DNA of 64,000 nt from Chitinophaga sancti (GTDB lineage Bacteria > Bacteroidota > Bacteroidia > Chitinophagales > Chitinophagaceae): assembly GCF_034087045.1 (NCBI RefSeq), contig NZ_CP139247.1, positions 8,256,844 through 8,320,843 on the forward strand, in the 5' to 3' direction. The stretch's first letter is position 1. Every line of letters begins with the position of its first letter. The notes beneath the pieces are model-generated. The model saw only the letters and a program-made list of their open reading frames with translations. It was not told the DNA's origin and did not search any database. A program made the translations under genes and the position numbers. Positions 34,613-39,735 of the stretch are shown piece after piece.

Positions 34613-37600
34613 ATGTTAGGTTTTTTAACAAAACTTTTTGGCGGGCATAAATCGGAGAGAGACATCAACACGATCATGCCTTTAGTGAAAAGGATCAACG
34701 AGGAGTATGAAAAACTGCAATCCCTGCCTGTAGACCAGCTGCGTAACAAAACGCAGGATTTTCGCCAACGGATCAAAGCCCATTTGTCGAAGATTGACGG
34801 AGTAATTGCCGAGAAACAGACTGAAGCTGAACAGACTGAAGAAGTAACCGCTAAGGATACCATCTATCAGGAAGTGGATAAGCTGAAGAAAGACAGAGAT
34901 AAACAAATCGAAGAAATACTGAAGGAAATTTTGCCTGAAGCATTTGCGGTTGTAAAAGCAACTGCATATCTCTTCACCAATAATCCTACTATTACTGCAA
35001 CCGCCACTCCGCTGGACCGGGACCTAGCAGTAAGTAAGGATTACCTGACCATTGAAGGTGACAAAGTGACGTGGAAGAATACCTGGACTGCCGCTGGTAG
35101 TCAGGTAACATGGAACATGGTTCACTATGACGTACAGCTCATAGGTGGTATCGTACTCCATGAAGGTAAGATCTCCGAAATGGCTACGGGTGAAGGTAAA
35201 ACCCTCGTATCTACCCTGCCTGCTTATCTGAACGCATTGGCTGGCGAAGGTGTTCACATCGTAACGGTGAACGATTACCTCGCTCGTCGTGACTCTGAGT
35301 GGAATGGTCCTATCTTCGAATTCCTGGGTATCACTGTAGATTGTATCGACAAGCACCAGCCAAACACTGCTGATCGTCGTGCTGCCTACCTCGCTGACCT
35401 TACCTATGGTACTAACAACGAATTTGGTTTTGACTACCTGCGTGACAACATGGTGCATACACCAGACGAAATGGTGCAACGTAAGCACCACTTTGCAATG
35501 GTGGATGAGGTGGATAGCGTATTGGTGGATGACGCCCGTACCCCACTCATCATCTCTGGTCCGGTTCCCCGTGGTGAAGACCAGGAGTTCCATGTACTGA
35601 AACCCCGCATCCAACGACTGATCGATGCACAACGCGCAGCTACTTCCCAGTACCTGCTCGAAGCAAAGAAACTGATTGCTGAAGGTAAAGACGATCCTAA
35701 AACAGGTGGTCTGGCCCTGATGCGTGCATGGCGCGGTTTGCCTAAAAGCAGCTCGCTGATCAAGTACCTGAGCGAACCAGGTATTAAAGTATTATTACAG
35801 AAAGCTGAAAACTACTACATCGCCGACCAACAGCGCGAAATGCCTAAGGTAGACGAAGAACTGTACTTCAGCATCGACGAAAAGAACAACACTGTAGACC
35901 TGACAGATAAAGGTATTCACCTGATCACTCAATCCGGTGAAGATCCAAACTTCTTCATCATGCCTGATGTCGGCTCTGAGATCGCTGATCTCGAAAAGCA
36001 GGAACTGACAGCTGATGAGAAATTACATCGTAAAGAAGCCCTGCTGAAGGACTTCGCACAGAAATCTGATCGTATCCACTCCGTACAGCAATTGCTGAAA
36101 GCATACACCCTCTTCGATAAAGATGTGGAGTATGTAGTAATGGATGGAAAAGTGAAGATCGTAGATGAACAAACAGGTCGTATCCTGGATGGCCGTCGTT
36201 ATTCTGACGGTCTGCACCAGGCAATCGAAGCGAAAGAAAACGTAAAAGTGGAAGCTGCTACGCAAACATTCGCTACCGTTACCCTGCAGAACTACTTCCG
36301 TATGTATCACAAACTGGCAGGTATGACCGGTACAGCGGTGACAGAAGCAGGTGAGTTCTGGGAAATCTACAAACTGGATGTTGTTACCATTCCAACTAAC
36401 CTCCCAATTACCCGTAAGGATAATGAGGACCTGGTATACAAAACCAAACGCGATAAATACAGGGCAGTCATCGAAGAAGTGAAGAAACTGCAGAACGAAG
36501 GACGCCCTGTACTGGTAGGTACTACCTCCGTAGAGGTATCCGAGTTGCTGAGTAAGATGCTCACTTTCGAAAAAGTGCCACACAATGTATTGAACGCAAA
36601 ACAACACGCCCGTGAAGCACAAATCGTAGCAGAAGCTGGTCTGAAAGGTGCTGTGACCATCGCTACCAACATGGCAGGTCGTGGTACGGATATCAAACTC
36701 GGCCCCGGTGTGAAAGATGCAGGTGGTCTGGCTATCATTGGTACTGAACGCCATGAAAGCCGTCGTGTTGACCGTCAGTTGCGTGGTCGTGCCGGTCGTC
36801 AGGGAGATCCGGGTACTTCACAGTTCTTTGTATCTCTGGAAGATGACCTGATGCGTATGTTCGGTTCTGACCGTATCGCTGGTCTGATGGACCGCATGGG
36901 TTATAAAGAAGGCGAAGTGATTCAGCATAGCATGATCACCCGTTCTATCGAAAGAGCACAGAAGAAAGTAGAAGAAAATAACTTCGGTATCCGTAAGCGC
37001 CTGTTGGAATATGATGACGTGATGAACAAACAACGTACTGTGATCTATGCTAAGCGTAATCACGCCTTGTTTGGTGAGCGTCTGGCTATCGATGTGGACA
37101 ATGCATTCTATGATGTAGCTGAAAACCTGGCAACGACACATAAAGATACCGGCGACCTGGAAGCACTGAAACTGGATATCATCCTCAACTTCGCGATCGA
37201 TATCGATATCACGCAGGAAGAGCTGACGAAAGGTGATGTAAACCAACTGGCATCTAAACTGTACCACGCTGCGAAAGAAAACTACCAGCGCAAAGTACAG
37301 GAGATCGCACAGAATACATTGCCAGTAATCAAACAGATCTATGAAGAACAGGGTCACCATGTAGAAAATATCTCTATTCCATTTACTGATTTCGTGAAGA
37401 GAGGGGTGAATGTAATGGCGAACCTGCAGAAAGTAGTAGATACCAATGGGTATGAAACGATCAACTCACTGGAACGTAATATCACCCTGTCATTGATCGA
37501 TGATGCGTGGAAAGAGCACCTGCGTGCGATGGATGACCTGAAACAATCCGTACAGAGTGCGGTGTGGGAACAAAAAGATCCATTGTTGATTTATAAGTTC

Positions 37601-37957
37601 GAAGCGTTTAACCTGTTTAAAGAGGTGACTGCAGAGACAAGTAAAGAGATAGTATCTTTCCTGTGTAAATGTGGTATTCCTGTGCAGGATGATGGTGGTC
37701 GTCCACAACAGCAACAGCGCCAGCAGGCACCTCCGCCAATCAGGGAGGCACGTGAGCAGAAGACGGATATGAGTAAGCTGAAGGCGACACACCAGGATTT
37801 TGAGACTACCAATGGACATGAGGCGCAGGAGTATGCTACGAATGCAGAGCCGATAAAACAGGATCCTGTGAAGGTGGGGCCTAAGGTAGGAAGGAATGAT
37901 CCTTGTCCTTGTGGAAGTGGTAAGAAGTATAAGCAATGTCATGGGAAGGATTTGTAG
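34613..37957 (+). CDS. secA: preprotein translocase ATPase SecA
   Basis: 1114 residues, typical for Bacteroidota SecA, which carry extra segments compared with the E. coli protein (901 aa). N-terminal [15 protein letters not shown], Walker A at about M190 ([20 protein letters not shown]), [20 protein letters not shown], the NBD2 motifs [20 protein letters not shown] and [14 protein letters not shown], helical scaffold, and the zinc-binding C-terminus [20 protein letters not shown] that contacts SecB and ribosomes. Drives Sec-dependent export through SecYEG. Possible promoter TTG-N21-TAATATTTG just upstream. Followed by its own terminator. Confidence 0.98.
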   Translation: [1114 protein letters not shown]

Positions 37958-37978
37958 TCCTTGCCTGATGAAAATAGT

Positions 37979-38013
37979 AAAGGGTGTCTCAGCTGAGGCA
38001 CCCTTTGTTTTTT
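37979..38013 (+). terminator. intrinsic terminator after secA
   Basis: Eight-base stem 37979-37986 / 37999-38006 with a self-complementary CTCAGCTGAG inside, followed by GTTTTTT. Lies 22 bases after the stop codon. Confidence 0.85.
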
Positions 38014-38023
38014 ATACAAAGGA

Positions 38024-38653
38024 TTACGCAGCTAGAATAGAGGAAGGTTTGAGGCGGGGACGGAAGAAGGCGAGGATACTATTAGGGTTACGAACGCAGA
38101 TCTGGATATGGTTTTTGAGTTTTATAGCGGCACCGGGGAAAGCAGGAGCACCTTCAAGAAAAGCACAGCGAACGGTGTCGTAAGTGTCTCTTGTTACAAA
38201 TCCATATTTCTGGCGTTCTATCTCCTGTTCAATACTCATTTCTCTGTGCATTTGTTCAATTACTGCACAATCCAATTTTCGAAGCAGTTTATCCTTATGT
38301 GGATCAGATTTAACGTCTTCATTATGTGGCATATTATCTAATCTTTTACTCAAATTCACATAATACGCTGCTAATTGCTCCGTATATTTTGAATTCAGAA
38401 AATCACAACAATTGCCTGGATGAATAAGTGCACCTAACACTGCTGGTTGCTTGATTTTTCCTTGCTTTTGTTTTTCAAGCGCCCATTGACAGGCTCTTTC
38501 TAAATTATTCTCCCAGAAATACATACCATTCCCTAACCAATCATAGGAATTTTTATTAAAATGGAACTCTCTGGGATTATTCACCAAACGCTGGCAGGTT
38601 TCCTCATCGCATCCATGGAAACCCAGAATTAAATGATGTCTGTTATCATACAT
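38024..38653 (-). CDS. putative ADP-ribosyltransferase-fold protein (uncharacterised family)
   Basis: 209 residues, cytosolic. The N-terminal motif LGFHGCDEE (H13), the central DWLGNGMYFWENNLERACQWA (Y45; split here as DWLGNGMYFWEN and LERACQWA) and the late FLEGAPAFPG (E167) follow the H-Y-E order and spacing of PARP/diphtheria-toxin-like ADP-ribosyltransferases; TYDTVRCAF and NHIQICVRNPNSILAFFRP are conserved in a widespread unnamed family that I recall from many bacteria. Enzyme activity is inference. The start overlaps by eight bases the stop of the 70-aa gene upstream (ATG within ATGTATGA), a coupling typical of toxin-antitoxin pairs. Convergent with secA across its terminator. Confidence 0.7.
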   Translation of the reverse strand: MYDNRHHLILGFHGCDEETCQRLVNNPREFHFNKNSYDWLGNGMYFWENNLERACQWALEKQKQGKIKQPAVLGALIHPGNCCDFLNSKYTEQLAAYYVNLSKRLDNMPHNEDVKSDPHKDKLLRKLDCAVIEQMHREMSIEQEIERQKYGFVTRDTYDTVRCAFLEGAPAFPGAAIKLKNHIQICVRNPNSILAFFRPRLKPSSILAA

Positions 38654-38858
38654 AAAAACACTGATTTAAATTATCCCATTTTAAAAATTGGAAATCTTCA
38701 TACTCAGGCGTGTACTGCCCGTTTTCATCACAGATACCCATCTCCATCAGGTAACGGATATTTTCCTCCCGGGTGGCCTTCTTAGCTCTTTCCAATGCAT
38801 TTCTTGCCGTCTCCCGTGCTTTCTCCAATTGGTACTCTTGCGAAAAAATGTTAATCAT
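38646..38858 (-). CDS. small protein coupled to the ART-like gene
   Basis: 70 residues from ATG 38858 (MINIFSQEYQLEKARETARN); a longer in-frame extension to 38981 is unlikely to be coding. The first 35 residues form a charged amphipathic helix (EKARETARNALERAKKATREE), followed by IRYLMEMGICDENGQYT and an acidic, aromatic tail (PEYEDFQFLKWDNL). No DNA-binding motif is evident. It ends inside the start of the ART-like gene, so the two are translationally coupled. Could be an antitoxin or substrate adaptor; no family recognised. Confidence 0.65.
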   Translation of the reverse strand: MINIFSQEYQLEKARETARNALERAKKATREENIRYLMEMGICDENGQYTPEYEDFQFLKWDNLNQCFYV

Positions 38859-39015
38859 ACTTTCTGTTTTAATAATGAACAATAATTTACCCCACAAATT
38901 TACCCCCTTCCCCTCTCCCAGCCTAGCTTTCCACGATCCATTTTTGTTCATTCTGCATAAACCTTTTCTCACCTCAACCATTCCCGTTCATTCCTGACAA
39001 TCCTACAATTTTCCC

Positions 39016-39042: not shown

Positions 39043-39735
39043 ATGCAGCTGAACAAATACATCGACCACACGGTCCTCAAACCTACCACCACCCTCGAAG
39101 ACATCAAAAACCTCTGCATGGAAGCCGTTGAATACGACTTCGCCGCAGTATGCGTCCCTCCACCCTTCGTAAAACTTGCCAAAACCTTCACCAGCAGCAC
39201 CACCACCAAAGTAGCCACCGTCATCGGCTTCCCCTTCGGCTACTCGGCCATCGAAGCCAAACTCGCCGAACTCGTCCTCGCCATCGTTGACGGAGCCAAC
39301 GAAGTCGACATGGTCGCCAACCTCCTCGCCATCCGTAACAAAGACTGGGACTATATCGAAAAAGAAATCAACAACATCATGGCCGTCATCCGCAGCCAAC
39401 AACATAAAGTCATCCTGAAAGTCATCATAGAAAGTGGCATATTATTGGAAGAAGAGATCATAAAATGCTGTGAGATCTACGCGAAATACGGCGTTGACTA
39501 TGTCAAAACATCCACCGGATACGCCGAAAAAGGCGCCTCCGTCGAAGCGGTAAAACTGATGCGGGCACATCTGCCACAAAATATTCAGATAAAAGCTTCA
39601 GGTGGAGTTCGTACATTTGCCTTCGCCCAGGAGCTAATCGCTGCCGGCGCCACCAGATTGGGTACTTCCAGCGGCGTGGCTCTCATGAAAGAGGCTAAAG
39701 GGGAGGCGATTACCGGCACCACCGGTGCTTATTAA
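39043..39735 (+). CDS. deoC: deoxyribose-phosphate aldolase
   Basis: 230 residues, class I aldolase TIM barrel. N-terminal LNKYIDHTVLKPTTTLEDI is the DeoC signature; the Schiff-base lysine lies in VDYVKTSTGYAEKGA, and the proton-relay lysine in IKASGGVRTF. Cleaves 2-deoxyribose-5-phosphate to acetaldehyde and glyceraldehyde-3-phosphate in nucleoside catabolism. The first 350 bases are strikingly C-rich with C-ended codons compared with the neighbours. Followed after 29 bases by the SPOR gene. Confidence 0.97.
   Translation: MQLNKYIDHTVLKPTTTLEDIKNLCMEAVEYDFAAVCVPPPFVKLAKTFTSSTTTKVATVIGFPFGYSAIEAKLAELVLAIVDGANEVDMVANLLAIRNKDWDYIEKEINNIMAVIRSQQHKVILKVIIESGILLEEEIIKCCEIYAKYGVDYVKTSTGYAEKGASVEAVKLMRAHLPQNIQIKASGGVRTFAFAQELIAAGATRLGTSSGVALMKEAKGEAITGTTGAY

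Follow-up and report, generated by a model that had tools for sequence, protein, structure and literature searches.

Closest described systems and the gene pair

The three-gene system PD-T4-9 was renamed CmdTAC (PMC9519451). Its CmdT ADP-ribosylates mRNA at GA steps, on N6 of the adenine (PMC11618068), and the system carries a SecB-like protein, CmdC. DarTG has an ADP-ribosyltransferase (ART) toxin with an antitoxin, a DNA target and a role in phage defence (PMC11833690, in part general background). In the RES-Xre systems (ParST, NatRT), entry titles indicate an ART-like fold within a toxin-antitoxin pair, and an R-E-S active site and an Xre antitoxin belong to them (PMC12457610). The literature describes Panacea as an antitoxin domain, and the available text of the Panacea papers mentions ADP-ribosylation only by way of DarTG (PMC8832971, PMC10440598). 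We analyzed two overlapping genes in a stretch of 64,000 nucleotides from Chitinophaga sancti (the window). With a probability of roughly 0.7, they form a two-gene, chaperone-free toxin-antitoxin module on mobile DNA, in which, judging from sequence comparison and a structure model, one protein would be toxic and the other would bind and neutralize it. The pair would work like CmdT with CmdA minus the chaperone, but it does not belong to CmdTAC. The literature searched, which left out preprints and most subscription papers, gave no description of it.

An earlier note on this DNA had described two open reading frames (ORFs) at 38024..38858 that overlap by eight bases, and both were found on the minus strand with that overlap. 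Their features are as follows.

38646..38858, minus strand: small gene of 70 codons (P0001, 70 aa), putative antitoxin, with predicted helices at residues 7-27, 30-39 and 51-58
38700..38774, minus strand: conserved segment of the small protein, residues 29-53, from the family pattern (majority letters only)
38024..38653, minus strand: ADP-ribosyltransferase-like gene of 209 codons (P0002, 209 aa), putative toxin, from predicted fold and motif
38646..38653, minus strand: frame overlap of 8 bp, from ORF coordinates
38615..38617, minus strand: H13 codon; first residue of the motif, invariant across all 115 rows
38519..38521, minus strand: Y45 codon; second residue of the motif, which aligns with the GFYFW tyrosine of the CmdT comparator
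38153..38155, minus strand: E167 codon; third residue of the motif, invariant across all 115 rows

The pair sits between secA (34613-37957, plus strand) and deoC (39043-39735, plus strand), as assigned by Pfam SecA and DeoC. The small frame also has a longer reading of 111 codons; the 70-codon version was preferred because related proteins have about that length.

Fold and motif of the larger protein

The larger protein is probably an ADP-ribosyltransferase. Its AlphaFold2 model was predicted with a local distance difference test score (pLDDT) of 94.7 and a template modelling score (pTM) of 0.89. Foldseek against the PDB returned 18 first rows that were all ART-type by entry title (ExoA, PARP1/15, NatRT, cholix, Xre-RES, RhsP2). 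With VIA, 49 of the 50 rows among the matches listed were ART-type by title, the remaining one being a cyanophage ejection protein. The comparison with ART folds that the earlier note had proposed as a check therefore led to ADP-ribosyltransferases among solved structures. The note had also placed H13, Y45 and E167 in the motif order of PARP-type enzymes, and none of the three residues varied among the 115 rows of alignment A3, one of which is the window's. The predicted ART fold and this H-Y-[E/D/Q] order are those of the PARP/diphtheria type, and Pfam PARP matched 12 of the 115 members at E 0.1 or better (best 5.7e-6).

The best viral structural match was a 1022-aa phage protein named ParB/Sulfiredoxin (6.5e-4); others were named ART-PolyVal. 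A PDB sequence search with the single larger protein gave no relatives. Ornithine aminotransferases, the best rows of the profile-based PDB search (0.006), were taken as chance because none occurred among the 50 structural rows listed.

Kinship to CmdT and comparison with known systems

By sequence comparison, the larger protein is a distant relative of CmdT. The PADLOC CmdT model (PD-T4-9_A) matched 114 of the 115 members at E 0.01 or better, weakly; the larger protein matched it at 1.1e-6 over residues 8-63 of 209 only, whereas real CmdT scores 9.7e-83 over its length. The comparator was a full CmdTAC from another genome (toxin 9.7e-83, PD-T4-9_B 2.9e-16, PD-T4-9_C 1.2e-49, Pfam SecB 9.9e-13, order T-A-C). 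Against its CmdT, hhalign gave a probability of 96% and E 3.3e-9 over residues 8-87. The two transferases resemble each other over the N-terminal half (GFHxC ... WLxxGxYFW) and are both of the H-Y-[E,D,Q] type. In CmdT, the Y41A exchange abolished protection (PMC11618068), and we infer that this residue is the tyrosine of GFYFW with which Y45 aligns. The family had been called widespread and without a known name; it is widespread, but it has known kin, since it is distantly related to CmdT. The PADLOC CmdT model also matched in the control genome Methanocaldococcus jannaschii, in both family searches.

CmdTAC membership was rejected because the chaperone, the gene order and the similarity to CmdA all failed to correspond. 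CmdTAC has the SecB-like CmdC, whereas Pfam found no SecB among the flanking genes here (SecA, DeoC and a SPOR-domain gene). No third ORF of at least 70 aa recurred in more than 6 of 125 blastp-clustered loci (transferase, small genes and antisense frames aside), although a very divergent chaperone could escape this count. The partner has predicted N-terminal helices as in CmdTAC, but it is usually encoded first here and second there. P0001 gave no match to PD-T4-9_B, the CmdA model, up to E 10, and hhalign with one CmdA comparator gave 0.2% and E 0.36.

The other systems were compared in the same way. Up to E 10, Pfam matched neither RES nor Xre in P0001 or P0002, nor a DarT domain, a macrodomain or NADAR, and the pair belongs neither to RES-Xre nor to DarTG. 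In structure, the larger protein does resemble RES entries. A quite improbable alternative is that the enzyme destroys NAD+ as a glycohydrolase or by phosphorolysis, like some RES toxins, and transfers no ADP-ribose. The invariant H-Y-E, the lack of a Pfam RES match and the nearest sequence relative found, the transferase CmdT, argue for transfer instead, and VIA Z differences below 1 are ties that do not favour NAD+ destruction.

Small protein and its family

The small protein was predicted to be mostly helical with moderate confidence (pLDDT 76, pTM 0.49). Comparison of 11 and then 62 partners indicated a common helical N-terminal part and the C-terminal majority pattern S/T-K-E-x-A-x(3)-L-x(2)-A-G-I-x(4)-G-x-L/F-T-x(2)-Y. 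No library named this family consistently, and P0001 matched 0 Pfam families. Scattered weak Pfam matches in the family were rejected as inconsistent, the most widespread occurring in 7 of 62 members (42 families, 25 listed). PADLOC Cas10 matches of P0001 (3.2e-4 and 0.011), each a short stretch in models of 605 and 519 positions, were taken as chance. In one relative (L088), a 205-aa protein upstream of the transferase is a Panacea protein (2.3e-20) that ends in the small motif; the SocA_Panacea domain is absent from the window's small protein by Pfam. In four loci (L016, L018, L020, L046), a single transferase is preceded by two to three tandem small-gene frames.

Pairing and gene order

A small-family profile was seeded on 42 upstream proteins and then iterated. 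After two of 137 loci (L132, L134) that gave no ORF were dropped, the 135 remaining loci included the window's locus, three paralogues and duplicates (L013 and L014 are one place). At E 1e-3, a profile match lay adjacent upstream of the transferase in 118 of them, and the other 11 matching frames of 25,934 searched were all within 0.9 kb of a transferase start on the same strand. At the looser E 0.05, applied to 646 near frames only, a match stood beside the transferase in 128/135 loci and in 123/129 with a full-length transferase. Conserved pairing, for which the earlier note had proposed a neighbourhood survey, was therefore recovered. The distance to the transferase was 30 bp or less in 111 of the 118 loci, and 50 of these 118 are overlaps. 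Such close linkage between a small gene and a toxin-like one is expected of a type II toxin-antitoxin system.

The seven unmatched loci were inspected by eye. The motif was seen upstream in L113 and downstream in L129 and L130, L072 has a small gene beside a broken transferase, L003 and L004 have divergent small ORFs, and none was recognized in L131. With three loci found by profile (L087, L092, L101), the small gene lies downstream of the transferase in five loci. The note's claim that the small helical protein is encoded first stands as the usual order in a near-constant pairing, but it is not universal. In L130, a 330-codon ORF, in which an Xre-like stretch was seen by eye, shares 4 bp at its end with the transferase frame.

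The profile seed was drawn from the same loci, and therefore a genome scan is the fairer test. Of 395 genomes from the phylum, six had the transferase, which was broken in two of them (G138, G261). The small family, for which at most 16 first-look candidates per genome were scored, was found in 8/395: the same six, G238, which retains remnants of the two genes, and G148, whose match was false and lay inside PanB (named by eye). Co-occurrence gave a Fisher p of 5.5e-12, uncorrected for kinship. A Mantel correlation (r 0.56, 112 pairs) reflects common inheritance and is no evidence of contact.

Polarity of the pair

In four places (L011, L013/L014, L072 and the first tandem copy in L003), the transferase is broken while the small ORF next to it is intact; the one next to the L003 copy is divergent. 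These places and the Panacea fusion are signs of the toxin-antitoxin character that the earlier note had considered possible.

Folding and accumulation of CmdT depend on CmdA (PMC11618068), and the small protein may likewise be in the first place a partner in folding. Near-constant pairing would suit a subunit equally well, and the pair would then be an active enzyme complex with the small protein chiefly its folding partner or activator. The four broken transferases with an intact small ORF and a lone small gene (L153) would be unneeded for a mere subunit, and the Panacea fusion and the tandem small-gene frames also argue against this explanation, which we consider unlikely.

Site, coding evidence and mobile carriage

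The genus was surveyed by searching 26 genomes with deoC, which gave 25 loci. Only one other of these loci, in the close relative G809, carries the pair at this site. Both secA and deoC were in view at 22 loci, with the transferase between them in two (the window and G809). At the other 20, no transferase was found in the gap and secA and deoC lie about 12 to 235 bp apart; none was seen at the three loci where secA was out of view. The secA-deoC gap is an acquired chromosomal site of the pair.

The two genes are real and conserved, and purifying selection acts on them. Between the window and G809, both frames are kept and the differences are concentrated at third codon positions: 9/9/26 over the three positions in the small gene (nonsynonymous divergence, dN, 0.15; synonymous divergence, dS, 1.0) and 16/16/42 in the larger gene (dN 0.074, dS 0.40). 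The flanks gave a dS of 0.06 for deoC and 0.09 for the SPOR gene. Because dS of the pair is far above that of the flanks, the pair was exchanged or is evolving faster than the flanks. The comparison with G809 (L160) looks as if alleles had been swapped at the site, with the pair far more diverged than its surroundings.

The genome contains four transferase copies, the window's included. One paralogue (L003, G000:C1 near 2354920) is a tandem duplication in the order small ORF, transferase truncated at about residue 38, second small ORF, full-length transferase.

The species-representative collection held 567 confirmed related stretches. The 80 relatives kept came from several bacterial phyla and one archaeal metagenome-assembled genome. 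Viral contigs contributed 43 loci, plasmids 66 of 72,556 records, and phages 2 of 50,697 records, both of Synechococcus phage S-B28 and both partial. The distribution is patchy: the pair occurs on plasmids and on prophage contigs and, in the chromosome, at an acquired site. Neighbours in nine plasmid records included some conjugation, toxin-antitoxin or defence-like genes; they were read without a control set, and therefore no enrichment is claimed.

In S-B28 (L137/L184), an unannotated small gene of 59 aa overlaps a 117-aa N-terminal half of the transferase. This half has the H and Y regions, ends before the Glu, and lies between structural genes and psbA. The truncated pair is a possible counter-defence.

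Many characterized ARTs modify proteins. Several Foldseek matches are such enzymes, which would suit a regulatory, protein-modifying transferase whose small protein is a substrate or adaptor in a non-toxic pair. Patchy presence (6/395 genomes), carriage on plasmids and prophages, an acquired site between core genes and the lack of a recurrent neighbour as a candidate target make this reading very improbable.

Signals around the pair

Two further features were recorded outside the frames.

38895..38902, minus strand: TAnnTTTG-like element lying 36 bp upstream of the small gene, seen by eye from sequence only and weak
37976..38009, plus strand: terminator-like hairpin between secA and the transferase gene end, 1 found against 0.9 expected in shuffles

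TAnnTTTG is the promoter consensus of Bacteroidota. A sigma-70 promoter scan found 2 sites against 2.8 expected, and nothing was drawn from it. The LAA end of the larger protein (38027-38035) was considered as a protease tag, as an LAA end in CmdA is a ClpXP signal (PMC11618068); it was dropped, since 2 of 129 full-length proteins end so, the window's included.

Proposed mechanism and meaning

In the proposed toxin-antitoxin module, the 70-aa helical protein, which is encoded first, would bind the transferase through its A-G-I-x(4)-G-x-L-T-x(2)-Y segment, keeping the enzyme folded and silent. When the small protein is lost, as after plasmid loss or phage takeover, the 209-aa PARP/diphtheria-type enzyme would be freed, would use NAD+ to modify a cellular target, and growth would stop. 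With no chaperone to act as a sensor, the enzyme would most simply be released when the small protein is lost or proteolysed. The target would most likely be nucleic acid, perhaps mRNA as with CmdT; RNA itself, proposed solely because of the kinship to CmdT, has slightly less than an even chance. The pair may perhaps serve plasmid maintenance or phage defence.

Several points weigh against this module. Six of the 129 full-length transferases have no adjacent profile match, and in L003 and L004, which are among the four copies of this genome, the profile missed the upstream small ORFs. The loci are not independent, with three groups of identical transferases among the 135. One orphan small gene (L153) occurs in G099. 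The polarity count covers broken transferases, with no systematic search made for a broken small gene beside an intact transferase; the small frame of G238 (L156) itself looks degraded and therefore was not counted as polarity evidence. The best Foldseek PDB value was 6.4e-3, with none at 1e-3 or below, and all VIA Z values were below 8, a range the tool flags as a possibly common arrangement. Similarity to CmdT is confined to the N-terminal half, and therefore E167 is not aligned to CmdT. CmdT alone is non-toxic and requires CmdA for its folding (PMC11618068). Toxicity and binding in the present pair are what we infer.

More tentatively, and less likely than not, the family may be an unnamed, large, chaperone-free branch of CmdT-like RNA ADP-ribosylating enzymes. 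Each would be held by a tiny antitoxin with a portable binding segment of about 25 residues behind changing N-terminal parts, once Panacea, and one cyanophage would carry the antitoxin with a truncated enzyme as possible counter-defence.

If the toxin-antitoxin module is real, ADP-ribosylation of nucleic acid, perhaps of mRNA, would reach beyond the three-gene CmdTAC and arm a widespread two-gene system. It would also provide a new antitoxin family, small enough for study at the peptide level, and a way to ask how such a toxin gained or lost its chaperone.
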